NCBI RefSeq assembly: GCF_900112675.1
Contig: NZ_FOMQ01000002.1
Coordinates: forward strand, 372,001 to 436,000
Source: Paracidovorax konjaci
GTDB lineage: Bacteria > Pseudomonadota > Gammaproteobacteria > Burkholderiales > Burkholderiaceae_C
Length of the DNA: 64,000 nt
Reading direction: 5' to 3'
Shown here piece after piece: positions 34,709 through 61,930 of the stretch. The position numbers were made by a program, and so were the translations under genes. The notes under the pieces are model-generated. The model saw only the letters and a list, made by a program, of their open reading frames with translations. It made no database searches and had not been told where the DNA came from. Numbering within the stretch: the first letter of the stretch is position 1; every line of letters starts with the position of its first letter.

Positions 34709-34770
34709 TTGCTATTGCTTGTATAGCAAAGTATTCAATGAATACGGCGGCATGAGCACCTTTTCATGCC
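34709..34770 (+). repeat. Dispersed stem-loop element, copy A
   Basis: Begins at the nucleotide after the PPTase stop. Three consecutive inverted repeats: TTGCTAT (34709-34715) with ATAGCAA (34723-34729); the 15-nt palindrome GTATTCAATGAATAC (34731-34745); and GGCATGA (34749-34755) with TCATGCC (34764-34770). It shares the core ATTCAATGAAT-CGGCGGCATG with three other copies in the window. Confidence 0.9.
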
Positions 34771-34813
34771 AAGACGGAGCGGGGCATCGCCAAACTTGCA
34801 GCAAGGAGCGCCC

Positions 34814-35038
34814 ATGACGTCCCCCAAGGTCACCCGCACCCCCTGGCCGTTTCCCACGGCCGAATCGCACCCCGCGCCGCCTCCGCAGGCCAGCGGGCTC
34901 CAGGTACAAACCGTCGAGGAAGACACGCTCGACAGTGCCGTGGAAGAAACCTTCCCTGCCAGCGACCCCGTCTCGGTGGTCAGCACCAAGGCCGTGCCGA
35001 CCCACGGCTCCGGCGACAGTGGAAAAAAGCCGCACTGA
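34814..35038 (+). CDS. Small acidic protein with ETFPASDP motif, function unknown
   Basis: 74 aa. The start at 34814 is supported by AAGGAG 5 nt upstream; a longer in-frame start at 34766 lies in the repeat element. The central part carries VEEDTLDSAVEETFPASDP, a short motif that I recall from many small uncharacterised proteobacterial proteins. No signal peptide or membrane segment. The N-terminus is Pro-rich. Function unknown. Confidence 0.7.
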   Translation: MTSPKVTRTPWPFPTAESHPAPPPQASGLQVQTVEEDTLDSAVEETFPASDPVSVVSTKAVPTHGSGDSGKKPH

Positions 35039-35095
35039 CGGCACCGCGGCCGGGGGGCGCGGCCGCCTGCCCGGGGCCGCCGCGCCGCCGTCCCG

Positions 35096-35650
35096 ATGAC
35101 GCAGGACGCCAGCCTCACCCTGCTCGGCCTCCTCATGGCGCTGTGGATCGCGGCCGGTGTTACGGACTGGTGGTGCCACCGCCGCACGCACATCGAAGCC
35201 ACCTCGGGCCTGGCCGAATCGGCCTTCCACTGGGCGCTGTTCCTGCAGATGGGCGCCGCCGTGCTGGCGGCCCTGCTGCTGCGCCCCACGGCCGCACTCG
35301 TCGCCTTCCTCCTCGCCATGTGGGCCCTGCACGAAGTGGCCACTTGGCTGGAACTGCGCATGGTCGCGCCCGTGCGCACCATCACCCCCCTGGAGCAGAT
35401 GGTCCACAGCTTCATGGAAATCCTGCCCCTCGCCGGCGTCATGCTCCTGTGCCAGCCCGCGCTCACCGCCTGGCTGCAGGCCCCTGAGAGCGAACGCACT
35501 CTCGACTGGTGCTGGCTCCCACGCGAATCCCTGCCGCCCTGGCCGGTGCTTGCGGGCTACGCAGTGGCGATCGCGGTCTGCAATGGGGGACTGCTGGCGG
35601 AAGAGAGCTGGCGGTGCTGGCGCACCGCCAGGGCGGGAGGGGGCCGCTGA
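35096..35650 (+). CDS. Integral membrane protein, unknown function
   Basis: 184 aa, about four hydrophobic segments (near residues 8-24, 45-75, 110-125, 150-170). Conserved-looking polar residues lie at the membrane edges: DWWCHRRTHIE near residue 24, ESAFH near 40, HEVATWLELR near 82 and TPLEQMVHSFMEILP near 100. The His/Glu pattern recalls metal-binding di-iron membrane enzymes but no family motif is complete, so I assign no function. It follows the 74-aa gene by 57 nt on the same strand. No clear Shine-Dalgarno. Confidence 0.7.
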   Translation: MTQDASLTLLGLLMALWIAAGVTDWWCHRRTHIEATSGLAESAFHWALFLQMGAAVLAALLLRPTAALVAFLLAMWALHEVATWLELRMVAPVRTITPLEQMVHSFMEILPLAGVMLLCQPALTAWLQAPESERTLDWCWLPRESLPPWPVLAGYAVAIAVCNGGLLAEESWRCWRTARAGGGR

Positions 35651-35984
35651 GGGAAATGCCGCGGGGGAAGGCTCTGTGCATTTCGGTGCGCCCTGCGATG
35701 CCGGCGAATCAGACTGGTGAAGCGCGCGTTCCGGGCTGCCGCGCGGCGGAGACGGACGTTGCGCGATACAGCTTTTGATGTGTTGGTTTGCTATGTTTTT
35801 TATAGCTGACTATTCAATGTATTCAGCGGCATGGAAGCGAAAAGACTCCATATAAGCTTCGCAACTGCTTTGTTCGACTCCACATGCGGCGTTTGTTGGT
35901 TCCGGGTCATCCGCCGTTATTTGCGGAAGATGGCTGCAGCGCAACGGTGCCGAGCGCCTCCCGCAGGCGCTCCCCGCCCGGGCT
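35651..35984. other. Convergent intergenic region with repeat copy D
   Basis: About 330 nt between a plus-strand membrane protein gene and minus-strand trpS. It contains copy D of the dispersed element (35788-35851) and an 8-bp hairpin near the trpS end (GAGCGCCT at 35952-35959, AGGCGCTC at 35965-35972) with no T-run on the trpS side. I see no gene here. Confidence 0.6.
35788..35851 (+). repeat. Dispersed stem-loop element, copy D
   Basis: TTGCTAT (35788-35794), spacer, ATAGC (35802-35806), then CTATTCAATGTATTCAGCGG and ATGGA...TCCAT (35831-35851). It is the most diverged of the four copies and the only one separated (about 140 nt) from the preceding stop codon. Confidence 0.85.
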
Positions 35985-37292: not shown

Positions 37293-37387
37293 GGTCGGAA
37301 ACGGAAAGCGAAGGACGGGGGAAAGCCGGGGCGGAAACCCGCTGCGTGGCTCCGGGATGGGGCGTGAGGGCGGGGTGGTGGAGCCTG

Positions 37388-38056
37388 TCAACGCAGCAGC
37401 GCGGTGAGCGGGGTCAGCAGCAGGTTGATCGCGGAATAACCCACCGACATCAGCGGGCGCAGCCACACCGTGCCCACGATGCCCGCCACCACCAGGGCCA
37501 GCACGATGAAGAAGCCGTAGGGCTCGATGCGCGAAAGCCAGTGCGCCTGCCGCCAGGGCAGCAGCCCCATCAGGATGCGCCCGCCATCGAGCGGCGGCAG
37601 CGGGAACAGGTTGAAGGCCCACATGACCAGGTTCACGAGCACGCCGGCACGCGCCATTTCCATGAAGAAGCGCTCGTCCACCTCGAAGGCCACCAGCGCC
37701 ACCATCAGCACCGCCCACAGGACCGCCTGAACGAAATTGGAGGCCGGGCCCGCCAGCGCGACCCAGATCATGTCGCGCTTGGGGTTGCGCAGGTGCCCGA
37801 AATTCACCGGCACCGGCTTGGCATAGCCGAACAGGAACGCTCCCGAGGTGGCGAAATACAGCAGCAGCGGCATCAGGATCGTGCCGACCGGGTCGATGTG
37901 CCGCAGCGGATTGAGCGTGATGCGCCCCATCATCGCCGCGGTGTTGTCGCCGAAGTAGCGTGCGGCGTAGCCGTGGGCCGCTTCGTGCACGGTGATCGCG
38001 AAGAGCACCGGCAGGGCATAGATGAGAACGGTTTGGATGAGATTGGAGAAGTCCAC
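37388..38056 (-). CDS. Site-2 protease family (M50) membrane metalloprotease
   Basis: 222 aa starting at GTG 38056. HEAAH near residue 24 provides the zinc-binding HExxH motif, NPLRHIDP follows, and LPPLDGGRI near residue 155 is the second zinc motif (the Asp ligand). Five to six membrane segments. It belongs to the short YwhC/SpoIVFB-like M50 group without a PDZ domain. Substrate unknown. It lies just ahead of trpS. Confidence 0.9.
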
Positions 38057-39424: not shown

Positions 39425-39517
39425 CGGGGCCGTTGGCCGGGCGGGCCGTAGACTGCCTTCAGCGCCGCCGGCCCCCGGCGGCTTTTGGTTGGTGACCGAG
39501 AACGGAAGGCAGGCCCC

Positions 39518-46922: not shown

Positions 46923-48168
46923 ATGCAACTTCCCTACGAACTGGCCCTGGGCTGGCGCTACACCCGGGCCGGACGCGCGACGCGGCGCAACGGCTTCATC
47001 TCGTTCATCTCCGGCGTCTCCATGCTCGGCATCGCGCTCGGCGTGGCGGCCCTCATCATCGTGCTGAGCGTGATGAACGGCTTCCAGAAGGAAGTGCGCG
47101 ACCGCATGCTCAGCGTGGTCTCGCACATCGAGATCTTCGCGCCGCAGGGCGCGGCGCTTCCCGACCTGCAGCGCACGATGGCCGAGGCGCGGCGCAATCC
47201 CGAGGTGGTGGGTGCCGCGCCGTTCGTGGCGTCGCAGGCGCTGCTGGCGCGCGGCGAGGACATGAAGGGCGCCCTGGTGCGCGGCATCGATCCGGCGAGC
47301 GAGGGCGAAGTGACCGAGCTGGCCGCGCGCAATGCCAGCGCGGTGAAGACCCTGGTGCCGGGTGAATTCCACGTGGTGCTCGGCACCGAGCTGGCGCGCT
47401 CGCTCGGCGTGCGCCCCGGCGACGCCGTGACGCTGATCGCGCCGGGCGGCCAGGTCACCCCGGCCGGCGTCGTGCCGCGCCTCAAGCAGATGACCGTCAC
47501 GGGCCTCTTCGAATCGGGCCACTACGAATACGACTCCGCGCTGGTGCTGCTGCACCACTCGGACGCCGAGCGCATCTTCCGCCTCGAAGGCCCGACGGGC
47601 ATCCGCCTCAAGCTGCGCGACCTGCACCAGGCCCCGGCGGTCACGATGCAATTGGCGCGCTCGCTCACCGGCGACCTGCTGATCCGCGACTGGACACAGC
47701 AGAACCGCACCTGGTTCGCGGCCGTGCAGCTCGAAAAACGCATGATGTTCATCATCCTCACGCTCATCGTCGCGGTGGCGGCGTTCAACCTCGTCTCCAC
47801 GCTGGTCATGACGGTGACCGACAAGCGCGCCGACATCGCCATCCTGCGCACGCTGGGCGCGAGCCCGCGCAGCATCATGGCGGTGTTCGTCGTGCAGGGG
47901 GCCATGGTGGGCGTGATCGGAACGGTGTGCGGGCTGGCGCTGGGCCTGCTCGTGGCGTTCAACATCGACGTCATCGTGCCGGCCATCGAGCATGCCCTGA
48001 ACGCGAGCTTCCTCCCCAAGGACATCTACCTCATCAGCAAGATGCCGAGCGACCCGCAGACCAGCGACATCGCGCCCATCGCGGTGATCTCGCTCATCCT
48101 GGCCTTCGCGGCCACGCTGTACCCGAGCTGGCGCGCCAGCCGCGTGAACCCCGCCGAGGCACTTCGCT

Positions 48169-48176
<8 letters not shown>
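46923..48176 (+). CDS. lolC: Lipoprotein-releasing ABC permease LolC/LolE
   Basis: 417 aa. One N-terminal membrane helix (about residues 24-48, [19 protein letters not shown]), a large periplasmic domain (MacB-PCD-like) and three C-terminal helices (FtsX domain, about 270-410) with [17 protein letters not shown]. With LolD it forms the inner-membrane complex that extracts outer-membrane lipoproteins and passes them to LolA. Only one permease gene is present here, as in many betaproteobacteria, so it may serve as a LolC/E homodimer. It overlaps lolD by 8 nt. Confidence 0.94.
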
Positions 48177-48933
<757 letters not shown>

Positions 48934-48993
48934 TTGCTATTAAATAGATAGTAAACTATTGAATGAATCCGGCGGCATGGAGGCAAAAACACT
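48934..48993 (+). repeat. Dispersed stem-loop element, copy B
   Basis: Starts at the nucleotide after the lolD stop and ends next to the pdxA start codon. TTGCTAT (48934-48940), weak complementary arm ATAG (48948-48951), then ACTATTGAATGAATCCGGCGG and GCATGGAGG. The GGAGG inside it (48979-48983) is the only Shine-Dalgarno-like site in front of pdxA. Confidence 0.88.
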
Positions 48994-50064
48994 GTGAATC
49001 CTCTTGTACAGGGCGCCGCTGAGGCCCCGCTGCCGCCGCTGCTGGCGATCACGCAGGGCGACCCGGCCGGCATCGGTCCGGAGATCGTCGCGCGGGCCTT
49101 CCGCGATGCGCCCGGCGATCTGCGCGGCTGCTTCGTGGCCGGCGACGTCGAGACGCTGCGCCGCGCCGCGCGCTGCATTGCGCGGCCGGGCGAGCCTTCG
49201 CTGCCCGTCGCCGTGCTGGCATCGCCCGCCGAGGCCCGCGGCGCGCCGCCGCGCTGCCTGCCGGTGCTGCCGCTGCCGGGGCTGCCCGGCCCGGTACCGT
49301 TCGGCGCGGTGAGCGCCGAGGCCGGACGGGCCGCGGCGGATTGCGTCGTCTGGGCCGCGCGGGCCGCGCTGCGCGGCGAGGTCGATGGCCTAGTGACGGC
49401 GCCGCTGCACAAGGAGGCGCTGGCGGCCGCCGGCGTGGACTATCCGGGTCACACCGAGCTGCTGCAGGCAGAGGCTGCCCGCCATGCCGGCGTGCCCGTG
49501 GCCGGCATGCCGGTGCGCATGATGCTGGCGAGCGATGAACTGCGCACCGTGCTGGTCAGCATCCACGTGTCGCTGCGCGACGCGATCGCGGCCGTCACGC
49601 CGGACAACGTGCTGCGCACGCTGGAGATCACCCACGAGGCGCTGCGCCGCAGCCTCGGCCGCGCACCGCGCATCGGCGTGGCGGGCCTCAACCCGCACGC
49701 GGGCGAGGGCGGGTTGTTCGGGCACGAAGAGGCGGAGTCCATCGCGCCGGCCATCGCGGCCGCGCGCGCACGGGGCATCGATGCGCACGGCCCCTTCGCG
49801 CCCGACACGGTGTTCATGCGCGCGCGCAGCACGCCGCAGCGCGCGGGCGAATTCGACGTGGTGCTGGCGATGTACCACGACCAGGGCCTCATCCCCGTGA
49901 AATATCTGGGCGTGGACAAAGGCGTGAACGTCACGCTCGGGCTGCCGCTGGTGCGCACCAGCCCGGACCATGGCACGGCCTTCGACATCGCGGGCCGCGG
50001 CACGGCCGATGCTTCGAGCCTGATCGAGGCCGTGCGCATGGCACGGCGCCTCGCGCGGCCGTGA
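48994..50064 (+). CDS. pdxA: 4-hydroxythreonine-4-phosphate dehydrogenase
   Basis: 356 aa starting at GTG 48994, 10 nt after GGAGG. Signatures: TQGDPAGIGPEI, VTAPLHKEAL, PGHTELLQAEA, GLNPHAGEGGLFGHEE, MYHDQGLIPVKYLG and TSPDHGTAFDIAGRG. Conserved histidines in these motifs bind the divalent metal. It oxidises 4-phosphohydroxy-L-threonine in pyridoxal 5'-phosphate synthesis. Its usual partners ksgA and surA are not adjacent here. A strong terminator follows the stop. Confidence 0.97.
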   Translation: MNPLVQGAAEAPLPPLLAITQGDPAGIGPEIVARAFRDAPGDLRGCFVAGDVETLRRAARCIARPGEPSLPVAVLASPAEARGAPPRCLPVLPLPGLPGPVPFGAVSAEAGRAAADCVVWAARAALRGEVDGLVTAPLHKEALAAAGVDYPGHTELLQAEAARHAGVPVAGMPVRMMLASDELRTVLVSIHVSLRDAIAAVTPDNVLRTLEITHEALRRSLGRAPRIGVAGLNPHAGEGGLFGHEEAESIAPAIAAARARGIDAHGPFAPDTVFMRARSTPQRAGEFDVVLAMYHDQGLIPVKYLGVDKGVNVTLGLPLVRTSPDHGTAFDIAGRGTADASSLIEAVRMARRLARP

Positions 50065-50069
50065 CCGGG

Positions 50070-50096
50070 GAGCGGCGCGCCGCTCCGCTCTTTTTT
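50070..50096 (+). terminator. Intrinsic terminator after pdxA
   Basis: The perfect palindrome GAGCGGCGCGCCGCTC (50070-50085) is followed by CCGCTC and six T residues (50091-50096), 5 nt after the pdxA stop. This is the expected form for a rho-independent terminator on the plus strand, facing convergent mscL. Confidence 0.85.
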
Positions 50097-50105
50097 ACCG
50101 GCAGG

Positions 50106-50537
50106 TCAGCGGCGCAGGCTGTCGCGGATCTCGCGCAGCAGCACGATGTCCTCGGGCGGCGTGGCGGGTGCGGCCGGTGCCGGGGGTGGTGCCTCGCGCT
50201 TCAGGCGGTTGATTTGCTTGACCATCAGGAAAATGATGAAAGCGAGAATCAGGAAATTCACCGCGACGGTAATGAAGCTGCCATAAGCGAGCACCGGAAC
50301 GCCGGCTTTGCGCAACGCATCGAGCGTGGCCGGGGTACCCGGCGGGACACTGCCGAGCACGAGAAACAGATTCGAGAAATCCAGCCGGCCGAATACCAGG
50401 CCGACCACCGGCATGATGACGTCGTTCACCAGCGAATCGACGATCTTCCCGAAGGCGCCGCCGATGATCACGCCGACGGCGAGGTCTATCACATTTCCCT
50501 TTACCGCAAACTCCCGGAACTCTTTTGCAATACCCAT
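50106..50537 (-). CDS. mscL: Large-conductance mechanosensitive channel
   Basis: 143 aa; ATG at 50537 with AAGGAGAGG 4 nt upstream. The N-terminal amphipathic segment [20 protein letters not shown] is followed by TM1 ([18 protein letters not shown]), a periplasmic loop with [18 protein letters not shown], and TM2 (about residues 75-100). The cytoplasmic C-terminal helix ends in [11 protein letters not shown]. It is a homopentameric emergency valve opened by membrane tension in hypo-osmotic shock. It is divergent from petA. Confidence 0.97.
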
Positions 50538-50602
50538 TTCGCCTCTCCTTGATATAGCTGAAAACCCTTGCAGTATTGCCGAGTTGGAGGGGTGATAACC
50601 CC

Positions 50603-50632
50603 TGGAATTAACCTTACTCGCGCCGCTACAAT
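50603..50632 (+). promoter_or_regulatory. Candidate sigma-70 promoter of the pet operon
   Basis: TACAAT at 50627-50632 is one mismatch from the -10 consensus, with TGGAAT 18 nt upstream as a weak -35. It sits 40 nt before the petA ATG in an unusually AT-rich stretch. A small hairpin, AGGGG-TGATAA-CCCCT (50588-50603), lies next to it. Assigned by eye only. Confidence 0.4.
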
Positions 50633-50671
50633 TTGTGATTGATCCTAAAGCGACGACCTTCGAGGACCCCC

Positions 50672-51271
50672 ATGAGTGAAACCCCAATCGACTCCAGCAA
50701 GAGGACGTGGCTCATTGCGTCGGGCTGTGCTGGTGCGGTGGGCGGCGTGGCGACGGCCGTGCCGTTCGTGAGCACGTTCCAGCCCTCCGAAAAAGCCAAG
50801 GCCGCTGGGGCCGCGGTCGAGGTGGACATCTCCGGCCTGAAAGCCGGCGAGAAAGTCACGGTGGAGTGGCGCGGCAAACCGGTGTGGATCATCAAGCGCA
50901 CCCCCGAGCAGCTCGCCGCGCTTCCCGGCCTCGACGGCCAGCTCGCCGATCCCAAGTCCGAACGCAAGCCGTCCGAACTCACCCCCGAATACGCGCGCAA
51001 CGAGAACCGCTCTATCAAGCCCGAGATCCTCGTGGCGGTGGGCATCTGCACGCACCTCGGCTGCTCGCCCAGCGACAAGTTCGCCCCCGGTGCGCAGCCC
51101 TCGCTGCCCGACGACTGGAAGGGCGGCTTCCTCTGCCCCTGCCACGGCTCGACCTTCGACATGGCCGGCCGCGTCTTCAAGAACAAGCCCGCGCCCGACA
51201 ACCTCGAAGTGCCTCCCCACATGTACCTGTCGGAGACCAAGCTCCTGATCGGTGAAGACAAGCAGGCCTGA
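50672..51271 (+). CDS. petA: Ubiquinol-cytochrome c reductase Rieske iron-sulfur subunit
   Basis: 199 aa; start chosen at ATG 50672, beginning [17 protein letters not shown], with the single membrane anchor at about residues 12-35. Cluster-binding loops CTHLGC (126-131) and CPCHGS (155-160) hold the two Cys and two His ligands of the [2Fe-2S] centre. It carries electrons from ubiquinol to cytochrome c1 in the bc1 complex. First gene of petABC; petB starts 13 nt after its stop. Confidence 0.97.
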
Positions 51272-51284
51272 GGGAGAAGAACGC

Positions 51285-52703
51285 ATGGCTCACCACGAAT
51301 TCAAGGACATCTCTCCGAACGCCTCCACGGGCGCCAAGGTCACGAACTGGTTCGAGAACCGGTTCCCGACGGCCTTCGACGCCTACCGGGTGCACATGTC
51401 GGAGTACTACGCTCCGAAGAACTTCAACTTCTGGTACATCTTCGGCTCGCTGGCGCTGCTGGTGCTGGTGATCCAGATCGTCACCGGCATCTTCCTCGTG
51501 ATGCACTACAAGCCCGACGCCGCCAAGGCATTCGAGTCGGTCGAGTACATCATGCGCGACGTGCCCTGGGGCTGGCTCATCCGCTACATGCACTCCACGG
51601 GCGCCTCGGCGTTCTTCGTGGTGGTGTACCTGCACATGTTCCGCGGGCTGCTCTACGGCTCCTACCGCAAGCCGCGCGAACTGGTCTGGATCTTCGGCTG
51701 CGCGATCTTCCTCGCGCTCATGGCCGAGGCCTTCATGGGCTACCTGCTGCCCTGGGGCCAGATGTCGTACTGGGGCGCCCAGGTGATCGTGAACCTGTTC
51801 GCGGCCATCCCCTTCGTCGGCCCCGACCTGGCACTGCTGATCCGCGGCGACTACGTGGTGGGCGACGCCACCCTGAACCGCTTCTTCAGCTTCCACGTGA
51901 TCGCCGTGCCGCTCGTGCTGCTGGGCCTCGTGGTCGCCCACCTGCTGGCGCTGCACGACGTGGGTTCCAACAACCCCGACGGCATCGAGATCAAGGGCCC
52001 CAACGCCCCGCGCGACGAGCAGGGCCATCCGCTGGACGGCATCCCGTTCCACCCGTACTACACGGTGCACGACATCTTCGGCGTGTGCGTGTTCCTGTTC
52101 ATCTTCTCGGCCGTGGTGTTCTTCGCACCCGAGTTCGGCGGCTACTTCCTGGAATACAACAACTTCATTCCGGCCGACCCGCTCAAGACGCCCGCGCACA
52201 TCGCGCCCGTCTGGTACTTCACGCCGTTCTACTCGATGCTGCGCGCCATCACGAGCGAGATGATGTATGCGCTCATCGGCTGCGTGGCGCTGGCCGCGGG
52301 CTTCGGCGTGATCAAGGGCCGGCTGCCGTCCTTCGTCAAGGCCGCCATCGTGGCCGTGGCCGTGGTCGCCATCGCGCTCATGCTGTCCATCGACGCCAAG
52401 TTCTGGGGCGTGGTGGTGATGGGCGGTGCCGTGATCATCCTGTTCTTCCTGCCGTGGCTCGACCACAGCCCCGTGAAGTCCATCCGCTACCGCCCGAGTT
52501 GGCACAAGTACCTTTACGGCATCTTCGTGATCAACTTCGTGGCCCTCGCATACCTGGGCGTGCAGCCCCCGTCGCCGATCGGCGAACGCGTCTCGCAGGT
52601 CGGCACGCTGTTCTACTTCGGCTTCTTCCTGCTCATGCCCTGGTGGAGCCGCCTCGGCGAGCCCAAGCCGGTGCCTGACCGCGTGACCTTCGCCGCGCAC
52701 TGA
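51285..52703 (+). CDS. petB: Cytochrome b of the bc1 complex
   Basis: 472 aa from ATG at 51285 (AGGGAGA upstream). An eight-helix-type cytochrome b: heme-ligand histidines in IRYMHSTGASAFFVVVYLHM and FSFHVIAVPLVLLGLVVAHL, and the Qo-site motif PEFGG (equivalent to PEWY) in FFAPEFGGYF. The longer C-terminus (beyond about residue 400) is usual in betaproteobacteria. It oxidises ubiquinol and contributes to proton translocation. Confidence 0.97.
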   Translation: MAHHEFKDISPNASTGAKVTNWFENRFPTAFDAYRVHMSEYYAPKNFNFWYIFGSLALLVLVIQIVTGIFLVMHYKPDAAKAFESVEYIMRDVPWGWLIRYMHSTGASAFFVVVYLHMFRGLLYGSYRKPRELVWIFGCAIFLALMAEAFMGYLLPWGQMSYWGAQVIVNLFAAIPFVGPDLALLIRGDYVVGDATLNRFFSFHVIAVPLVLLGLVVAHLLALHDVGSNNPDGIEIKGPNAPRDEQGHPLDGIPFHPYYTVHDIFGVCVFLFIFSAVVFFAPEFGGYFLEYNNFIPADPLKTPAHIAPVWYFTPFYSMLRAITSEMMYALIGCVALAAGFGVIKGRLPSFVKAAIVAVAVVAIALMLSIDAKFWGVVVMGGAVIILFFLPWLDHSPVKSIRYRPSWHKYLYGIFVINFVALAYLGVQPPSPIGERVSQVGTLFYFGFFLLMPWWSRLGEPKPVPDRVTFAAH

Positions 52704-52722
52704 GCGGGCCGGAACGACGACC

Positions 52723-53478
52723 ATGAAAAAAATCATCCTCACGCTGATTGCCTCGCTCGGGTTCGCCCTGGGCGCGCACGCCGCAGAAGGCGGCATCGCC
52801 TGGGACAAGGCCCCGGTGCGCACGAACGACACGGCCTCGCTGCAGAACGGCGCCAAGATCTTCGTCAACTACTGCCTGAGCTGCCACTCCGCCGCCTTCA
52901 TGCGCTACAACCGCCTGAAGGACATTGGCCTCACCGACCAGCAGGTCAAGGACAACCTGCTCTTCGCCACCGACAAGGTCGGCGAGACGATGAAGGCCAC
53001 CATCGATCCGCGGCAGGCCAAGGACTGGTTCGGCGCCAACCCGCCGGACCTCACCGTGATCGCGCGTTCGCGCGCCGGGCACAACGGCACCGGAGCGGAC
53101 TACCTCTACACCTTCCTGCGCACGTTCTACCGCGACGAGACCAAGGCCACGGGCTGGAACAACCTCGCTTTCCCGAGCGTGGGCATGCCGCACGCGCTGT
53201 GGCAACTGCAGGGCGATCGCCGTCCGGTTTTCGAGGAACACGAGAGCCACGGCCACAAAACCCAGGTATTCAAAGGCTGGGAGCAACTGACTCCGGGTAC
53301 CATGTCGCCCCTCCAGTACGACGAGACCGTGGGTGATCTCGTCAACTACCTGCAGTGGATGGCCGAGCCGGCGCAAAATACGCGGGTTCGCGTCGGTGTG
53401 TGGGTGCTGATCTTCCTCGGCATCTTCACCGTCATCGCCTGGCGCCTCAATGCGGCGTTCTGGAAGGACGTCAAGTAA
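52723..53478 (+). CDS. petC: Cytochrome c1 of the bc1 complex
   Basis: 251 aa. Signal peptide MKKIILTLIASLGFALGAHA, covalent heme site CLSCH at residues 51-55, and a C-terminal membrane anchor (about residues 223-243, VGVWVLIFLGIFTVIAW). It passes electrons from the Rieske protein to soluble cytochrome c. It is 19 nt downstream of petB and followed by a terminator. Confidence 0.97.
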   Translation: MKKIILTLIASLGFALGAHAAEGGIAWDKAPVRTNDTASLQNGAKIFVNYCLSCHSAAFMRYNRLKDIGLTDQQVKDNLLFATDKVGETMKATIDPRQAKDWFGANPPDLTVIARSRAGHNGTGADYLYTFLRTFYRDETKATGWNNLAFPSVGMPHALWQLQGDRRPVFEEHESHGHKTQVFKGWEQLTPGTMSPLQYDETVGDLVNYLQWMAEPAQNTRVRVGVWVLIFLGIFTVIAWRLNAAFWKDVK

Positions 53479-53533
53479 GCTTGGCCTCCGCTGCAGCATC
53501 AGCGTCGCCTTCGTGCGGCGCATTTCGCTTTCC

Positions 53534-53565
53534 AGAGTGGACGTTTCACGCGCCCACTCTTTTTG
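53534..53565 (+). terminator. Intrinsic terminator after petABC
   Basis: AGAGTGG (53534-53540) pairs with CCACTCT (53554-53560), and the T-rich run TTTTGATTTTT follows. It lies between petC and sspA, so sspA may be expressed partly by read-through or from its own promoter. Confidence 0.65.
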
Positions 53566-53585
53566 ATTTTTAGGAGCTTCCCACC

Positions 53586-54197
53586 ATGATGGTGCTTTAT
53601 TCGGGTACGACCTGTCCTTTCTCCCATCGCTGCCGCTTCGTCCTGTTCGAAAAGGGCATGGACTTCGAAATCCGCGATGTGGACCTGTACAACAAGCCCG
53701 AAGACATCAACGTGATGAACCCCTATGGCCAGGTGCCCATCCTGGTCGAGCGCGACCTCATCCTGTATGAGTCGAACATCATCAACGAGTACATCGACGA
53801 GCGCTTCCCGCACCCGCAGCTGATGCCTGGCGACCCGGTCGACCGTGCCCGCGTGCGCCTGTTCCTGCTCAACTTCGAGAAGGAACTGTTCGTCCACGTG
53901 AACGTGCTGGAGTCGCGCGCCACCAAGGGCAACGAGAAGGCGCTCGAAAAGGCCCGCTCGCACATCCGCGACCGCCTCACGCAGCTGGCCCCGGTGTTCC
54001 TCAAGAACAAGTACATGCTGGGCGAGAATTTCTCGATGCTCGACGTCGCCATCGCGCCGCTGCTCTGGCGCCTGGACTACTATGGCATCGAGCTGTCGAA
54101 GAACGCCGCGCCGCTGCTGAAGTACGCCGAACGCATCTTCTCGCGCCCGGCCTACATCGAAGCGCTGACGCCTTCCGAGAAAGTCATGCGCAAGTAA
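53586..54197 (+). CDS. sspA: Stringent starvation protein A
   Basis: 203 aa; first of two tandem ATGs, 9 nt after AGGAG. A glutathione-S-transferase-like fold: thioredoxin-like N-domain with SGTTCPFSHRCRFVLFEKG and NPYGQVPILVERDLILYES, then an all-helical C-domain. SspA binds RNA polymerase and acts as a transcription regulator in starvation and acid stress; it does not need GST activity. Linkage to petABC and sspB is standard in betaproteobacteria. Confidence 0.96.
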   Translation: MMVLYSGTTCPFSHRCRFVLFEKGMDFEIRDVDLYNKPEDINVMNPYGQVPILVERDLILYESNIINEYIDERFPHPQLMPGDPVDRARVRLFLLNFEKELFVHVNVLESRATKGNEKALEKARSHIRDRLTQLAPVFLKNKYMLGENFSMLDVAIAPLLWRLDYYGIELSKNAAPLLKYAERIFSRPAYIEALTPSEKVMRK

Positions 54198-54245
54198 GCG
54201 CTGCTGCTGCACCCTGCCTCCCCGCTTCCCTTCCGAAACGCCGAC

Positions 54246-54791
54246 ATGATGAACGCCCAGGACTCCACTTCCACGCGCCCCTACCTGATCCGGGCCTTGT
54301 ACGAGTGGTGCACCGACAATGGCTTCACGCCCTACATCGCGGTGCGCGTGGACGATTCGGTCCAGGTGCCGCGCGAATACGTGAAGGATGGCGAGATCGT
54401 GCTCAACGTCAGCTACGACGCCACCAGCGCGCTGCAGCTGGGCAATGATTTCATCGAGTTCAAGGCCCGTTTCGGCGGCAAGCCGCGCGACATCATGGTG
54501 CCCATCGGGCGGGTGATCGCGATCTATGCCCGCGAGAACGGCCAGGGCATGGCATTCCCCCCGCCAGTGGATGTGCTCTCGCCGGGGGGCTTGCCGCCCG
54601 GTGCGGTGTCCAGCCTGCTGGATGCCGGCGGCGCCCCCACCGGAGGTGCGCTCGAACCTGCGGAAGGCGACGACCGCGTGGTGCAGCTCGTTCCGTCCGA
54701 GGGTGGTGCTTCCTCCCCTTCGGACGAACCTCCGCGCGGCCCCGGTCCGGCTGCGTCGGGTGGCCGTCCCTCGCTCAAACGCGTCAAGTGA
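54246..54791 (+). CDS. sspB: ClpXP protease specificity-enhancing factor SspB
   Basis: 181 aa; two adjacent ATGs (54246, 54249), no clear Shine-Dalgarno. The folded domain (about residues 10-110) has RPYLIRALYEWCTDNGFTP and IEFKARFGGKPRDIMVPIGR. A flexible Gly/Pro-rich tail ends in GRPSLKRVK, matching the ClpX-binding tail of E. coli SspB. It delivers ssrA-tagged proteins from stalled ribosomes to ClpXP. Confidence 0.96.
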   Translation: MMNAQDSTSTRPYLIRALYEWCTDNGFTPYIAVRVDDSVQVPREYVKDGEIVLNVSYDATSALQLGNDFIEFKARFGGKPRDIMVPIGRVIAIYARENGQGMAFPPPVDVLSPGGLPPGAVSSLLDAGGAPTGGALEPAEGDDRVVQLVPSEGGASSPSDEPPRGPGPAASGGRPSLKRVK

Positions 54792-54840
54792 TCCCGGCGC
54801 CGGCTGCGCCCGGCCCCTGCGAAGGGGCTGCGTGGCGCGG

Positions 54841-54846
54841 TAGAAT
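54841..54846 (+). promoter_or_regulatory. Candidate -10 box of tRNA-Thr
   Basis: TAGAAT, one mismatch from TATAAT, 9 nt before the mature tRNA 5' end. No good -35 is visible 16-18 nt upstream. A GCCCCT...AGGGGC hairpin lies just before it and may end the sspB transcript. Confidence 0.45.
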
Positions 54847-54855
54847 GCGCGCTTC

Positions 54856-54931
54856 GCCGATTTAGCTCAGTTGGTAGAGCACCCGCCTTGTAAGCGGAAG
54901 GTCGTCAGTTCGATCCCGACAATCGGCACCA
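54856..54931 (+). tRNA. tRNA-Thr (anticodon UGU)
   Basis: 76 nt with encoded CCA. Acceptor arms GCCGATT and AATCGGC, D-arm GCTC...GAGC, anticodon loop CTTGTAA (anticodon TGT, reads ACA) and T-arm with GTTCGATCC. The outermost pair of the anticodon stem reads C-A rather than a Watson-Crick pair. A T-run follows 3 nt after the gene. Confidence 0.97.
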
Positions 54932-54971
54932 TCTTTTTTCTTCCCGTTCGCCACCAGCGTGCCGCAGGGCC

Positions 54972-55271
54972 TCAGGTTTGGATTTTCAGGCGAATGGCGT
55001 TAACCTCCCACCCCCGAACGCGCAGATGCGCCTGCAAGGCAGGCAGCAACTGACGCACCTTGGCTGCCGCCGCATTGCTGCGGACCAGCAGGCACCACGT
55101 CGTGCCCTCGATCGGCCCTGCCTGGATGGCGGGCCGCAAGGTGGCGGGAATCAGCAACTCGATGGCCTTGAGCCGTTCGCTCGAGTCGCGCGTCAAGGCA
55201 GCCAGGCGGGCCAATGTGGGGGAATCCTCGGTGGCCTGCAGCAGCGTGACGGCGTGGTGACGGCGGTTCAT
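54972..55271 (-). CDS. DUF721/DciA-like protein
   Basis: 99 aa from ATG at 55271, beginning MNRRHHAVTLLQATEDSPTL. It has the short DUF721 pattern (LIPATLRPAIQAGPIEGTTW, VRSNAAAAKVRQLLPALQAH). Members of this family next to secA or lpxC in proteobacteria include DciA, a loader of the DnaB helicase; whether this short form does that is inference. It is divergent from the M23 peptidase gene with about 30 nt between start codons. Confidence 0.8.
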   Translation of the reverse strand: MNRRHHAVTLLQATEDSPTLARLAALTRDSSERLKAIELLIPATLRPAIQAGPIEGTTWCLLVRSNAAAAKVRQLLPALQAHLRVRGWEVNAIRLKIQT

Positions 55272-55302
55272 GGAAATGCGCCGCGCGGCGCGGAGAAACG
55301 AA

Positions 55303-56262
55303 GTGCAGTTGATTATCACGGACGCCTGGCTGGCGCGCAGCCGCGCCATCCATCTCTCGGGCCTGCGGCTGGCGGTGGCCGGCCTGGTGCTCTCGGTGCT
55401 GGTCATGCTGGTGGCGGCCTTGCTCTACCACTGGGTGTTCCTGAAGGGGGCCCGCGAAGGCTGGCCGGTGGTCGGTTCGCTGGTGCGGCTGGCCGCGCGC
55501 GACGAGATGGCCGAACGCGACCGGTTCATGCGGGCGAACCTCGACGCGATGGCCCGCAAGGTCGGCGAGATGCAAGCGCGCATGCTGCAGCTCGAATCGC
55601 TCGGCGAGCGGGTTTCCGGCCTGGCAGGCATGCCGGCCGCTGAATTCACCCGCCCGCCGGGGCAGGGCGGGGCGCTGGTCTCCAGCCGCCCGATGGACAT
55701 GGAAGAACTGCAGAGCACGCTGGATGCCCTGTCCCAGCTCACCGACCGCCGGGTGGACCTGCTGACCGTGGTGGAATCGCGCCTGTTCGACCAGCACATC
55801 CGCAAGAACATGGTGCCCACCCAGGAACCCGTCCTCGGCAAGTCCGCAGGGTCGCCCTTCGGCTGGCGCATCGACCCGTTCACGGGCCAGTCGGCCCTGC
55901 ACACCGGGCTGGACTTCCAGGCCGACACGGGCACCCCCATTTTGGCGGCCGCGGGCGGCGTGGTGGTGGCGCAGGAATACCACCCGGCCTACGGCAACAT
56001 GATCGAGGTCGACCACGGCAACCAGTTGGTCACGCGGTATGCGCATGCTTCCCGCACGCTCGTCAAGCGCGGCGATCTGGTCCGCCGGGGGCAGAAGATC
56101 GCCGAGGTCGGGACCACCGGCCGTTCCACCGGGCCGCACCTGCATTTCGAGGTGCTGGTGCAGGGCGTTCCGCAGGATCCGCAGAAATTCCTGCATGCCG
56201 GCACGACGGGCATCCCTGCGGACCAGCGGGTGGCGGCGAAGGCCGCCACGCCTCGCAGGTAA
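55303..56262 (+). CDS. M23-family (LytM) peptidase, membrane-anchored
   Basis: 319 aa from GTG 55303, chosen because GGAGAAACGAA directly precedes it and homologues start with the QLIITDAWLARS sequence; an ATG at 55270 would overlap the divergent DUF721 start. An N-terminal membrane anchor (about residues 22-45), a predicted coiled region (about 65-100) and a C-terminal LytM domain: HTGLDFQADTGTPILAAAGG and HLHFEV contain the zinc ligands, so it is probably an active peptidoglycan endopeptidase. It is upstream of secA, as in related genomes. Confidence 0.92.
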   Translation: MQLIITDAWLARSRAIHLSGLRLAVAGLVLSVLVMLVAALLYHWVFLKGAREGWPVVGSLVRLAARDEMAERDRFMRANLDAMARKVGEMQARMLQLESLGERVSGLAGMPAAEFTRPPGQGGALVSSRPMDMEELQSTLDALSQLTDRRVDLLTVVESRLFDQHIRKNMVPTQEPVLGKSAGSPFGWRIDPFTGQSALHTGLDFQADTGTPILAAAGGVVVAQEYHPAYGNMIEVDHGNQLVTRYAHASRTLVKRGDLVRRGQKIAEVGTTGRSTGPHLHFEVLVQGVPQDPQKFLHAGTTGIPADQRVAAKAATPRR

Positions 56263-56364
56263 AATCGCGCGCTCCGGAATCGCTGCCCCTGGTTGCATAA
56301 CTTGCAAGCGGTGGCGGTGGCCCCCATCTGAACCCACTTCATCATTAGGGATTCGGGTCGCGGC

Positions 56365-56382
56365 ACCTGCCCCAGGGCAGGT
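56365..56382 (+). promoter_or_regulatory. Hairpin in the secA leader
   Basis: ACCTGCCC (56365-56372) and GGGCAGGT (56375-56382) form an 8-bp inverted repeat with a tiny loop, ending 15 nt before the secA ATG. No Shine-Dalgarno lies between it and the start codon. It could block or shape ribosome access. No T-run, so it is unlikely to be a terminator. Confidence 0.5.
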
Positions 56383-56397
56383 CGCGGTCCTGTTCGC

Positions 56398-59172
56398 ATG
56401 GCCTCCAACTTCCTCACCAAACTATTCGGCAGCCGCAACGACCGGCTCCTCAAGCAATACCGCAAGACGGTGGCCCGCATCAATGCGATGGAGCCCGATT
56501 ACGAGAAGCTGAGCGACGAAGCCCTGCGCGCCAAGACGGGGGAGTTCCAGGGCCGCGTCGCCAAGGGCGAAGCGCTCGACGATCTGCTGCCCGAGGCCTT
56601 CGCCGTCGTGCGCGAGGCCTCCAAGCGCGTGATGAAGATGCGGCACTTCGATGTGCAGCTTCTGGGCGGCATGGCGCTGCACCACGGCAAGATCTCCGAA
56701 ATGCGCACGGGCGAGGGCAAGACCCTCACCGCGACGCTGCCGGTGTACCTGAACGCGCTGGCCGGCAAGGGCGTGCATGTGGTGACCGTGAACGATTACC
56801 TCGCCAGCCGCGACGCGCGCTGGATGGGCCGGCTCTACAACTTCCTGGGCCTGACCGTCGGCATCAACCTGCCGCAGGCGCCGCGCGAGGAAAAGCAGGC
56901 CGCCTACGCCGCCGACATCACCTACGGCACCAACAACGAATACGGCTTCGACTACCTGCGCGACAACATGGTCTACGAAGCACGTGACCGTGTGCAGCGC
57001 GTGCTGAACTACGCCATCGTGGACGAGGTGGACTCGATCCTGATCGACGAGGCGCGCACGCCGCTGATCATCAGCGGCCAGGCGGAAGACCACACGGCGA
57101 TGTATGTCGCCATGAACAAGGTCGTGCCGCTGCTCGTGCGCCAGGAAGGCGAAGCCGATCCCCGCACGGGCGAGGGCGTGACCAAGCCGGGCGACTTCAC
57201 GCTCGACGAGAAGACCCACCAGGTCTTCCTCACCGAGCAGGGCCACGAGACGGCAGAGCGCGTGCTCGCGGACCAGGGCCTGATCGCCGAGGGCGCCTCG
57301 CTCTACGATCCCGCCAACATCACGCTGATGCACCACCTGTATGCGGCGCTGCGGGCCAACCACCTCTACCACCGCGACCAGCATTACGTGGTGCAGAACG
57401 GCGAGATCGTCATCGTGGACGAGTTCACCGGCCGCCTCATGGCCGGCCGCCGCTGGAGCGAAGGTCTGCACCAGGCCGTGGAAGCCAAGGAAGGCGTGGA
57501 GATCCAGGCCGAGAACCAGACCCTGGCCTCGATCACCTTCCAGAACTACTTCCGCCTCTACGGCAAGCTCTCGGGCATGACGGGTACGGCCGACACCGAG
57601 GCCTACGAATTCCAGGAAATCTACGGGCTCGAGACCGTGGTGATCCCGCCCAACCGGCCCAGCAAGCGCGACGACCAGCTCGACCGCGTCTACAAGACCA
57701 CGCGCGAGAAGTACGAGGCCGCGATCCAGGACATCCGCGAATGCCACGAGCGCGGCCAGCCCGTGCTGGTGGGCACGACGTCGATCGAGAACTCGGAAAT
57801 CATCGACCAGCTGCTGCAGAAGGCAGGCCTGCCCCACCAGGTGCTCAACGCCAAGCAGCACGCCCGCGAGGCGGACATCGTGGCGCAGGCCGGCCGTGCC
57901 GGCATGATCACCATCGCCACCAACATGGCGGGCCGCGGCACCGACATCGTGCTGGGCGGCAACATCGAGAAGGAAGTCACGGCGATCGAAGAGGACGAGT
58001 CCATCGACGACGCGGCCAAGGAAGCCCGCATCGCCGCGCTGCGCGCAGAGTGGGCCGTGGACAACGAGAAGATCAAGGCCCTGGGCGGCCTGCGCATCAT
58101 CGCCACCGAACGCCACGAGTCGCGCCGCATCGACAACCAGCTGCGCGGCCGCTCGGGCCGCCAGGGCGATCCCGGCTCCTCGCGCTTCTACCTGAGCCTG
58201 GACGATTCGCTCATGCGCATCTTCGCGGGCGACCGCGTGAAGTCGATCATGGAGCGGCTCAAGATGCCCGATGGCGAGGCCATCGAGGCCGGCATCGTCA
58301 CGCGCAGCATCGAATCCGCGCAGCGCAAGGTCGAGGCGCGCAACTTCGACGTGCGCAAGCAGTTGCTCGAGTATGACGACGTGGCCAACGACCAGCGCAA
58401 GGTGATCTACCAGCAGCGCAACGAGATCCTCGACGCCGCGGACCTCTCCGCCGTGATCGCCGGCATGCGCGAAGCCTGCCTGACCGACATCGTGCGCCAG
58501 TACGTGCCCGCCGAATCGGTGGAAGAGCAGTGGGACCTGCCTGCGCTCGAGAAGGCCCTGGCCGACGAGTGGCAGATCCGGCTCGCGCTGCAGCAGGAAG
58601 TGGAAAGCGCCCAGGCCATCACCGACGACGAGATCCTCGACAAGGTGGTCGCCGCCGGCCATGCCGCGTTCCAGTCGAAGGTGGATCTGGTGGGCCAGGA
58701 GAACTTCCACCAGTTCGAGCGCGCCGTGCTGCTGCAGAGCTTCGATTCGAACTGGCGCGACCATCTTTCGGCACTCGACTACCTGCGCCAGGGCATCCAC
58801 CTGCGCGGCTATGCGCAGAAGCAGCCCAAGCAGGAATACAAGCGCGAGGCGTTCGAGCTGTTCCGCCAGCTGATCGACCAGGTGAAGAACGAAGTCACGC
58901 GCATCCTGCTGACCGTGCAGGTGCAGTCGCCGTCGGAGCTGGACCAGGCCGCCGAAGCCCTGGAAAGCCGCGCGGAACAGATCGCCAACGTGACCTACAC
59001 CGCGCCCACCGAAACCGGCGAACCCGAGGTCACGTTCGACCCCCGGACGCAGCCGGGTGCAGGCGGCAACGATGGCCTCAACCTGCCCGAAGGCGTGCGT
59101 GTGGGCCGCAACGACCCCTGCCCGTGCGGCAGCGGCAAGAAGTACAAGCAGTGCCACGGCAAGCTCGCCTGA
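56398..59172 (+). CDS. secA: Protein translocase ATPase SecA
   Basis: 924 aa, full length. Walker A MRTGEGKT (102-109), DEAD-type [19 protein letters not shown], the second nucleotide-binding fold with [20 protein letters not shown], and the C-terminal zinc and SecB-binding tail [13 protein letters not shown] (from residue 908). It drives preproteins through SecYEG. No secM-like arrest ORF is visible upstream. argJ follows after 114 nt. Confidence 0.98.
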
Positions 59173-59286
59173 CGGTGCGCTGAAGCCTGCGTCTTCGCTG
59201 CATGGGCCGCCGCAATGCGGCCCATGCCACGTCCCGGCGGCGTTGCGGCCCGACCGCTGCGCCCCTTTTCACCCAAGGATTTCCGC

Positions 59287-60516
59287 ATGCCCGTGAACCT
59301 CTCCGCTCCCGTTGCCTCCGATCTGCACCCGGTCGCCGGCGTCCGCATCGGCGTCGCCGAAGCCGGCGTCCGCAAGGTGGGGCGCAAGGACGTGACCGTG
59401 TTCCTGCTGGACGAAGGCGCCGCCGTCGCCGGCGTCTTCACGCAGAACCGCTTCTGCGCCGCGCCCGTGCAGGTGTGCCGGGAGCATCTGGCCCGCGGCA
59501 CGCAGATCCGTGCCATCGTGGTCAACACCGGCAACGCCAATGCGGGCACGGGGGCTGACGGCCTCGCGCGGGCCCGTGCGACCTGCGATGCGCTGGCCGC
59601 GCAGCTGGGCGTCGATGCCGCGCAGATCCTGCCGTTCTCGACGGGCGTGATCATGGAGCCGCTGCCCCACGACCGCATCATCGCCGGCCTGCCGGCGGCG
59701 ATCGCCGATGCGCAGCCTGCGCACTGGGGGCGCGCCGCCGAAGGCATCATGACCACGGACACGCTGCCCAAGGCCTTCAGCACGCAGGTGCGGATCGGCG
59801 GAGCCACCGTCACCGTGACCGGTATTTCCAAGGGCGCGGGCATGATCCGCCCCAACATGGCGACCATGCTGGGCTTCCTGGCCACCGATGCCCGCATCGC
59901 GCCGGAGCTGGTGCAGCCGCTCGTGCGCGAACTCGCCGAGCAGTCGTTCAACCGCATCACCATCGACGGCGACACGTCCACCAACGATTCGTTCGTGCTG
60001 ATGGCCACGCAGCGCGCGGACCATGCCGCGATCGATTCCCTGGACAGCGCCGAGGGCCAGGCCCTGCGCGCGGCGCTGCGCGAAGTGGCGCAGAAGCTCG
60101 CGCAGGCCATCGTGCGCGACGGCGAGGGCGCCACCAAGTTCATCGCCATCCGCGTGGAGGGCGGCCGCACGGCGGAGGAATGCCGCAAGGTGGGCTATGC
60201 CATCGCGCATTCGCCGCTCGTGAAGACGGCCTTCTTCGCCAGCGATCCGAACCTGGGCCGCATCCTGGCCGCCGTGGGCTATGCGGGCATCGACGATCTC
60301 GACCAGACCCGCATCGACCTGCACCTGGACGACGTGCACGTGGCCGTGCAGGGCGGACGCCACCCCGCCTACCGCGAGGAAGACGGCCAGCGCGTGATGA
60401 AGCAGAGCGAGATCACCGTGCGCGTGGGGCTGGGCCGCGGCGAGGCCGCCGACACCGTGTGGACCTGCGACCTGAGCCACGACTACGTGACCATCAACGC
60501 CGACTACCGCTCCTGA
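59287..60516 (+). CDS. argJ: Bifunctional ornithine acetyltransferase/N-acetylglutamate synthase
   Basis: 409 aa from ATG 59287 with AAGGA upstream. The self-cleaving site [14 protein letters not shown] has the nucleophile Thr193; cleavage before it makes the alpha and beta chains. GDTSTNDSF and the C-terminal VTINADYRS are also family signatures. It moves the acetyl group from N-acetylornithine to glutamate, feeding the ornithine/arginine pathway. Ornithine is also the likely precursor of the siderophore hydroxamate, though nothing links the two genetically. Confidence 0.97.
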
Positions 60517-60556
60517 ACGGGGCCCGCCGGGCCGCGCGCGACTTTCCTCCGAACCC

Positions 60557-61432
60557 ATGAACGATCGATTCGAACACCTCCTGCTGCGCGCCGAGCAGCT
60601 CATCGACCGCATCGAGTCGGTGCTGCCCCGTCCCCTCGCAGCGCCCGCGGACTGGAACGCCTCCGTGGCTTGGCGCTACCGGCGGCGCGGCGGCGGCCAC
60701 GGCGCGCTGGAGCCCGTGCGCCACGTCGCGGGCATCGCGCTGGACGACCTCAAGGAGATCGACGCGCAGAAGGAAAAGATCGAGCGCAACACGCTGCAGT
60801 TCGTCGAGGGCCGGCCGGCCAACAACGTGCTGCTGACGGGCGCACGCGGCACCGGCAAATCCTCCCTCATCAAGGCCTGCCTCCAGACCTACGCTAGCCG
60901 CGGCCTGCGGCTCATCGAGGTGGACAAGGCGGATCTCACCGACCTGCCCGACATCGTGGACGTGGTGGCCGGCCGGCCCGAGAAATTCATCATCTACTGC
61001 GACGACCTGAGCTTCGAGGAAGGCGAATCGGGCTACAAGGCGCTGAAGTCGATCCTCGATGGTTCCGTGTCCGCCTCGGCGCCGAACGTGCTGGTGTATG
61101 CCACCAGCAACCGGCGGCACCTGCTGCCCGAGTACATGAAGGAAAACCTCAGCTACACGCACACCGAGGATGGCGAGGTCCATCCGGGCGAGGTGGTGGA
61201 GGAGAAGATCTCGCTGTCCGAGCGCTTCGGCCTCTGGATCAGCTTCTATCCGTTCAGCCAGCAGGAATACCTGGCCATCGTGGCGCAGTGGTTGTCCGCG
61301 CTGGGCGTGCCGGCGCAGGCCATCGAGGCAGCCCGGCCCGCGGCCCTGGTCTGGGCGCTGGAGCGGGGCTCCCGCAGCGGGCGCGTGGCCTACCAGTTCG
61401 CCCGCGACTTCGCGGGCCGTGCCCATGGCTGA
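60557..61432 (+). CDS. DUF815-family AAA ATPase
   Basis: 291 aa. Walker [10 protein letters not shown] near residue 96, Walker B region [16 protein letters not shown] near 142, and the family-typical [17 protein letters not shown] (sensor 1 with Asn). DUF815 proteins are predicted AAA+ ATPases of unknown role, common in proteobacteria. The stop overlaps mutT by 8 nt, so the two are co-translated. Confidence 0.9.
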
Positions 61433-61889
61433 GGCCCGCGAAGCGCCCGCCGGCGCCACGCCGCGCAAGCACACCGAAGTGGCCGTGGGCATCCTGTTCC
61501 GCGGCGACGGCGCAATGCTGCTGTCCACCCGCCCGGCAGGCAAGCCGTACGCGGGATACTGGGAGTTCCCGGGCGGCAAGCTGGAGGCCGGGGAGACCGT
61601 CGAGCAGGCCCTGCGCCGGGAACTGGTCGAAGAGCTGGGCGTCACCATCGGCCCCGCTGCGGTCTGGAAGGTGACCGAGCACGACTATCCGCACGCGCTC
61701 GTGCGGCTGCACTGGTGCAAGGTGCACGCCTGGACCGGTGAATTCGAGATGCGCGAAGGCCAGGCCATGGCGTGGCAGCAGTGGCCGCTGGAGGTGTCGC
61801 CGGTGTTGCCCGGGGCGTATCCGGTGCTGCAGTGGCTGGCCGAAGAGCGTGGCCTGCCATTCGATATCAATTTGCTACAAAAACAATAG
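61425..61889 (+). CDS. mutT: MutT-like Nudix hydrolase
   Basis: 154 aa from ATG 61425. The Nudix box [22 protein letters not shown] fits GX5EX7REUXEEXGU. The length and the secA-mutT-yacG neighbourhood, as in E. coli, support the 8-oxo-dGTP pyrophosphatase MutT, which prevents A:T to C:G mutations. The last residues (LLQKQ) and the stop codon are encoded by copy C of the dispersed element. Confidence 0.92.
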
Positions 61890-61930
61890 CAAACTATTCA
61901 ATGAATCCGGCGGCATGGAGCATGAAACAC
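61871..61930 (+). repeat. Dispersed stem-loop element, copy C
   Basis: TTTGCTA (61871-61877) pairs with TAGCAAA (61887-61893), then CTATTCAATGAATCCGGCGG (61894-61913) and CATGGAG-CATGAAACAC. It starts inside the mutT coding sequence, supplies its TAG stop, and runs to within 25 nt of the convergent yacG stop. Confidence 0.9.

Follow-up and report, generated by a model that had tools for sequence, protein, structure and literature searches.

A stretch of 64,000 nucleotides from Paracidovorax konjaci (the window; contig NZ_FOMQ01000002.1, G000:C17:372001-436000 in our numbering, in a genome of 5.08 Mb and 36 contigs) carries four copies of a short dispersed repeat built around a palindrome. The four copies are members of a family of a few hundred short repeats per genome, real and old. 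With a probability of a little under one half (about 0.45), we read this family as an old, bacterial-family-wide repeat that resembles the repetitive extragenic palindromic (REP) elements, is vertically inherited, is recognized as double-stranded DNA and is probably kept as a set of protein binding sites.

Four copies in the window and hundreds in the genome

Copy 1 (34708..34775, plus strand) consists of a palindrome at 34708-34730, a conserved 3' half at 34730-34757 and, to about 34775, the partner of a weaker third inverted repeat; it directly abuts, with zero gap, a 4'-phosphopantetheinyl transferase gene (33854-34708). Copy 2 (35787..35854, plus strand; palindrome 35787-35809, 3' half 35809-35836) is more divergent and lies in a convergent gap, about 140 nt behind a stop at 35650. 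Copy 3 (48933..49000, plus strand; palindrome 48933-48955, 3' half 48955-48982) is flanked by an ABC transporter ATPase gene, whose stop ends at 48933, and by pdxA, which starts at 48994. Copy 4 (61871..61938, plus strand; palindrome 61871-61893, 3' half 61893-61920) occupies another convergent gap, and the stop codon (61887-61889) of a NUDIX-domain gene ending at 61889 lies inside its palindrome. The original prediction had placed four copies at these positions, two of them starting right after a stop codon and one enclosing its own; reading the window bears this out, for the copies counted from 34709 and 48934 and for the one at 61871.

A 21-base core, allowed at most 3 mismatches, matches the four copies and one further place on the minus strand (41458) of the window, and has no match in 100 shuffled windows; the original prediction had called the pattern too regular for chance. 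A search of the whole genome with this core yields 218 core matches (113 plus, 105 minus; the same threshold) against none for the reversed pattern, so the family is not confined to the four copies. Among named public records, from which those near the window's genome were possibly left out, the sole exact core match lies in P. anthurii (NZ_QLTA01000104.1, 6416-6442); genus member G011 has its core match on contig 104, at 6416-6442.

Anatomy of the element

The unit measures about 65-75 bp. Its palindrome, TTTGCTAT-N7-ATAGCAAA with an A/T-rich centre, is common across the bacterial family, and is followed on its 3' side by about 20 bp of lineage-specific sequence, a G-rich block and, often, a run of A or T. 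The G-rich block reads CGGCATGGAG in P. konjaci and GCGCTGGAGGC or GGGCTGGAGGC in relatives. A consensus drawn from 45 copies in 864 kb of the P. konjaci genome and 70 aligned copies from two species (alignment A1, which holds 70 of 85 copies after removal of the weakest 14 and of another whose spacer is shifted) runs TTTGCTAT-N7-ATAGCAAA-CTATTSAATGRATMCGGCGGCATGGAG, about 3 variable bases, a short A- or T-rich run and a weakly conserved tail. Whether A or T predominates in the run behind the GGAG block depends on the copy.

The spacer is nearly invariable: in five sequence sets searched on both strands, TGCTAT-Nk-ATAGC occurs 115 times with k=7 and 6 times with any other k from 2 to 15, and the N7 palindrome has 281 matches in the P. 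konjaci genome against 2 for an N6 control. The loop is 84% A+T over 85 copies. Copies are mostly solitary, with 2 pairs closer than 600 bp among 57. A subtype (L036:9299-9366, L123:17404-17471) contains CAATGTTTGCGGCGG, where a further hairpin could arise from GCAAAC...GTTTGC, and its downstream arms, GCATGGAGCC and GGCTCCATGC, are complementary. A second palindrome noticed in two relatives (GCGCTT/AAGCGC in G005, GCCCA/TGGGC in G138) was rejected as a general component, being absent from G071 and from P. konjaci; it shows no covariation in G138 (94 of 132 paired cells, against 93.97 in shuffles), and its variation in G005 is not informative.

Distribution

Palindrome matches, summed over both strands so that a fully symmetric copy counts twice, number 281, 282, 229, 222, 201, 186, 179, 123, 80, 73 and 33 in eleven genomes of the genus, the first being P. 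konjaci. Six further genomes of the genus (G002, G008, G009, G012, G013 and G015) have 2-7 matches each, and in this copy-poor clade some sites have decayed with their length kept and others have been deleted. The clade constitutes a natural experiment, in which a comparison of gene content could lead to the protein that reads the element. The bacterial family was sampled with 250 genomes from 141 genera, of which 104 genomes and 67 genera contain the palindrome at least once; among 195 genomes from other families of the order the count is 0-4 each, about the control level. One P. konjaci copy has no match in 72,556 plasmid and 50,697 phage records.

Change in place across the genus

The 3' half is alike among the copies of one genome and unlike between species. 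Relatives carry an element whose position and orientation match those in P. konjaci, and whose 3' half does not, at four of five sites followed genus-wide; the same is true of three of the four sites that were mapped in G005. Beside pdxA, 9 of 16 relatives have a clear element, one (G014) a degenerate element and 6 none; the upstream gene differs in four of the ten element-bearing relatives (G001, G004, G005 and G014), and the palindrome is common to the relatives while the remainder is not (GCGCTTATTGAATAAGCGCTGGAGGC in G004, for example). The pattern at the NUDIX site (61871) is similar, with degraded palindromes in some relatives. Here the palindrome (61871-61889) codes for the C-terminus and stop of the NUDIX-domain protein; in copy-poor relatives the C-terminal peptide is similar (LLPKA against LLQKQ), as if an eroded palindrome had stayed coding.

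Four of 57 P. konjaci copies could be mapped in 400 kb of G005, where a G005-type element is clear at three sites and degraded at 61871; in the reverse direction 2 of 15 G005 elements were placed in the P. konjaci genome, both without a partner. Ten relatives have an element at C14:67839, differing by 2-3 mismatches, and seven have one at C14:75639, where G001, G005 and G014 were not mapped. At C14:64867, G010 and G011 carry the element as in P. konjaci, and G001, G004, G005 and G014 have no clear element. G003, G006, G007 and G016 have a half like that of P. konjaci at C14:75639 and another type beside pdxA; element types therefore coexist within a genome. Halves of the AGGCAATAAATACGCCGGC type, close to those of P. 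konjaci, occur in G071, which belongs to another genus.

The element prefers gene ends

Gene context was scored for 57 copies in 864 kb of the P. konjaci genome, with genes called by a custom script; coding fractions of 0.84, 0.72 and 0.94 in the three stretches indicate that some genes were missed, and G071 was left out of the context analysis for its reduced gene-calling coverage. Between called genes lie 52 of the 57 copies: 12 in tandem gaps in sense orientation, 22 in tandem gaps in antisense, 17 in convergent gaps and 1 in a divergent gap. At least one gene 3' end is faced by 51 of the 52. A stop lies within 50 nt in 24 of 29 copies with an upstream sense gene and in 31 of 39 with an opposing downstream gene; two copy-to-stop distances exceed 1 kb. 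Measured against 415 gaps of at least 60 nt (282 tandem, 50 convergent, 83 divergent), divergent gaps are depleted (1 copy against 83 of 415 gaps; Fisher p 4e-4) and convergent gaps enriched (p 5e-4). Over P. konjaci, G005 and G138 together, 2 of 82 copies are divergent (p 8e-6), and tandem gaps hold 24 sense and 31 antisense copies. The preference for gene ends, in either direction, is real. The 3'-end enrichment that the original prediction had suggested as a check is present; the common orientation that it had claimed holds within the window and dissolves genome-wide, on both the strand counts and the tandem gaps. Replication-strand bias among 70 exact core copies in G010 is at most weak, in a visual count that takes base 1 as the presumed origin.

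At C14:67839 an atypical arm, TGCTCC, supplies in the form of GGAGCA a ribosome-binding sequence ahead of where an opposite frame apparently starts, and at C14:133357 the palindrome overlaps the start of a neighboring frame, which we take to be HisH. In both cases an element arm seems to have been lent to the neighboring gene. A promoter reading was rejected: the window copies fit TTGCTA-N17-TATTSA, yet window 48000-62100 has no promoter-like match, and 39 of the 52 intergenic copies face away from a neighboring start or sit in convergent gaps.

A bolder proposal, doubtful at present, is that a dedicated DNA-binding protein would flag where a few hundred genes end, working from either side; its preference for the 3' half would shift by lineage, with the sites following in place. 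If true, such a DNA-bound mark would be an uncommon bacterial way of separating neighboring transcription units.

Upstream of the phosphopantetheinyl transferase gene (33854-34708), very long open frames occupy window 48-28437, possibly a cluster for peptide or polyketide synthesis.

A RAYT-like transposase is nearly universal

In a REP system proper, the elements described here would be non-autonomous copies moved, now or formerly, by the family's Y1 transposase, a protein like the REP-associated tyrosine transposases (RAYTs). Such a gene exists: with matches of E above 1e-3 dropped, each of the 17 genus genomes has exactly one PF01797 (RAYT-like) gene (E up to 0.001), and the P. konjaci protein, of 235 aa, scores 79.3 bits against the NCBIfam REP-associated tyrosine transposase model, just below the cut-off of 80. 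An element copy lies about 230 bp upstream of the gene in P. konjaci, and in 9 of the 16 genomes of the genus that were evaluated (all but G007) an H1-like palindrome (at most 2 mismatches) precedes the gene by 99-230 bp; in G005 the upstream palindrome has the other orientation and other neighboring sequence. A moving element would also explain a difference in orientation at C14:64867, described below.

Against this stands the distribution of the gene. All six copy-poor genomes of the genus (2-7 palindrome matches) have it as an open frame, and 237 of 250 genomes of the bacterial family, whether or not they carry elements, have a homologue. Two genomes in which no homologue was found, G080 and G202, have 34 and 38 palindrome matches but are 70-74% complete. 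Among the 27 best-scoring RAYT-like loci of other genera, one (G026) has a palindrome beside the gene and two have it inside the coding sequence; of those loci, 12 belong to genomes with at least 30 matches, and one of the 12 has a copy beside the gene. A second, inverted copy downstream of the gene was not seen in the 16 genus genomes or at the 27 other loci. Neither A1 (70 copies) nor the column counts (45 copies) show a conserved GT(A/G)G foot, and on the opposite strand the consensus bases preceding the palindrome are ATAG rather than GTAG or GTGG. The P. konjaci protein, with its motifs NHFH and YIDLNP, resembles in length and motifs subclass 2.1 of the RAYTs, which is listed without REPs in the accessible portion of PMC6006769. 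No turnover is seen between sister species at 25 sites.

Adjacency to the RAYT-like gene is slightly above what copy density predicts, by a rough estimate rather than a computation, and the link between element and RAYT, though unproven, keeps some probability. A REP system in the strict sense is unlikely. The original prediction of a REP-like family mobilized by a RAYT stands in its REP-like outline; the transposase that it suggested looking for is present, but mobilization by it is not shown, since the gene is found in copy-rich and copy-poor genomes alike and adjacency is rare outside the genus. A second bold reading, likewise doubtful, is that the elements supply the cognate repeats so far missing for the orphan RAYTs of subclass 2.1/group 1; if true, it would show what these widespread proteins act on.

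Retention and constraint between sister species

Most aligned DNA of P. konjaci and its sister species G010 is 92-97% identical. Sites were mapped by both flanks, 22 of 33 in C14:1-400000 and 3 of 4 in the window, the rest falling outside the fetched G010 stretch or in extra DNA. The element is present in both sisters at 25 of 25 mapped sites, including one scored as absent that on reading holds the element. Differences between orthologs are 0.074 in the 5' arm, 0.029 in the 3' arm, 0.053 in GGCGGCATGGAG, 0.091 in the linker, 0.143 in the palindrome loop and 0.120 in the loop of the third repeat, against 0.281 and 0.226 in the flanks, where indels inflate the values because the comparison is ungapped. 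The arms and the GGCGGCATGGAG block change more slowly than the loop, which supports constraint on the arms.

The same comparison bears on whether the copies are neutral relics of an extinct mobile repeat that persist through slow loss and tolerant gene ends. Placement is as expected for harmless insertions, elements decay or are deleted in place in the clade with 2-7 matches, and some parts of the element change as fast as the loop or faster. Yet change in the arms and in the GGCGGCATGGAG block is lower, by a factor of about 2-5, than in the loop of the same copies, and the 3' half is similar within a genome and different between species, so that we regard neutral persistence as rather improbable.

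Orthologs are closer than paralogs in all ten regions compared. There is therefore no sign of present homogenization between copies, and gene conversion going on at present is rejected for short time scales. The idea that insertion sequences target the element was likewise rejected: the four G010 sites with about 1-1.8 kb of extra DNA comprise one insertion sequence, one gene with a duplicated element and two other stretches. The insertion sequence (G010:C1 ~3423441-3424713), presumably ISAs1-like, lies beside the ortholog of the copy at window 61871, where about 10 bp of target DNA appear to be duplicated. At L122 (G010:C1:406001-426000) there is an extra gene with a second element copy where the counterpart, G000:C14:83639, has one copy, a gain or loss of a gene between direct repeats.

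The palindrome is probably recognized as DNA rather than RNA

The original prediction took varying spacers and kept stems as selection on RNA structure, and offered a terminator or processing element as one outcome. An RNA-level 3'-end element, whether a terminator, a processing site or a stabilizing stem-loop, would fit copies that sit behind stops and a palindrome that can fold on either strand. The formal tests give no excess of compensatory change in the palindrome. At its innermost pair, 57 P. konjaci copies have TA 31, CA 16, TG 5, CG 1 and others 4 times, and at another pair TA 40, CA 10, TT 5, TG 2 and CG 0; in A1, the paired share of cells is 80.5% (81.7% in shuffles), and double changes occupy 2 cells where 6.1 were expected. 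The palindrome folds no worse when copies exchange their 3' arms: in each of four tests, between 3910 and 4726 of 5000 permutations equalled or bettered the real pairing. Single pairs that at first suggested compensatory change were not upheld by these tests. In 20 sense copies from P. konjaci and G010, G-U pairing arises solely on the other strand in 12 cells and on the mRNA strand in 2, the opposite of what mRNA selection would produce. For the weaker third inverted repeat, pairing within a copy may be slightly better than pairing between copies: 438 and 735 of 5000 permutations match it in P. konjaci, and 146 and 2366 of 5000 in G010. Half-site deviations are independent, which speaks neither for nor against binding by a dimer.

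Folding z-scores are -2.6 and -3.2 in two of eight copies and -2.0 in a third, and lie between -0.1 and -1.7 in the other five. Rfam matches one tRNA alone in the window, likewise tRNA alone in five 20-kb loci of four genomes, and nothing at window 34690-35870 at E up to 1. A scan of window 48000-62100 for intrinsic terminators gives no plus-strand match at copies 3 and 4, and one weak minus-strand match (61949-61930) touching copy 4. With orientation not fixed and a spacer length that hardly varies, an RNA-level 3'-end element of any of these kinds is distinctly improbable. Recognition of the palindrome as double-stranded DNA is well supported, because the palindrome lacks covariation on either strand and the tract behind the GGAG block may be A-rich or T-rich.

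Weighing the preferred reading

An account that joins these results is one in which the copies spread long ago by some copying process, are now vertically inherited, and are kept for their use, at gene ends, by a putative DNA-binding protein that perhaps binds the palindrome as a dimer. Such a protein might block transcriptional read-through or collision, or organize the chromosome.

Several observations weigh against this preferred reading of inherited, retained binding sites. No binding protein for the element was found, and the reading leaves unexplained the copying process that must have carried the element to hundreds of places. Five of the 57 P. konjaci copies lie inside called genes. 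RATNC (0.200) and the 3' arm of the third repeat (0.192) change more than the loop (0.143), the slower change of the element relative to its flanks is overstated by the ungapped comparison, and slow loss by itself may account for part of the retention. Finally, at C14:64867 the same gap in G003, G006, G007 and G016 holds an element of another type in the opposite orientation, which implies gain or flipping over longer times. In the orthologous loci (L223, L225, L234 and L235) either the lineage-specific half is flipped around the palindrome or the element was gained independently.

An uptake-signal-like sequence with a dialect drifting by biased transformation would explain lineage-specific versions at the same places and the collapse in one clade, and the core with its A/T tracts recalls known uptake signals, but known uptake signals are several times more numerous with a shorter unit, and few copies here (5/57) lie inside genes, so this reading is highly improbable.

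Comparison with known systems

DNA uptake sequences are dispersed signals with lineage dialects, as here; the present family differs from them in unit length, copy number and near-exclusion from genes. In the open literature, most subscription papers lying outside the search, no description of the present repeat was found, and a repeat in hundreds of copies per genome appears to be without a name, an Rfam model or a known reader.

The Betaproteobacterial repeat element (BRE) is likewise intergenic and occurs in some Comamonadaceae; according to the accessible portion of PMC3110155 it is about 90 bp long, 69% G+C, often tandem and present in at most 29 copies. Identity with BRE, judged by that description rather than letter by letter, was rejected, since the present family has an A/T-rich loop, mostly solitary copies and several times more of them. 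The GTAG- and CGTC-tagged palindromes of PMC3733652 are also small palindromic genomic repeats; the present family lacks such a tag, and none of five Comamonadaceae genus names searched occurs in the main text of that paper.

Compared with REP elements as the accessible portion of Nunvar 2010 (PMC2817692) describes them, the present family is without the GT(A/G)G head and without two inverted copies around a RAYT gene; its unit is longer and asymmetric, with a nearly invariable spacer and a palindrome that lacks covariation, and its copies are mostly solitary rather than gathered into clusters of the kind called BIMEs. In other respects the two are alike: both comprise hundreds of mostly extragenic, palindromic copies near gene ends, in lineage-specific types.

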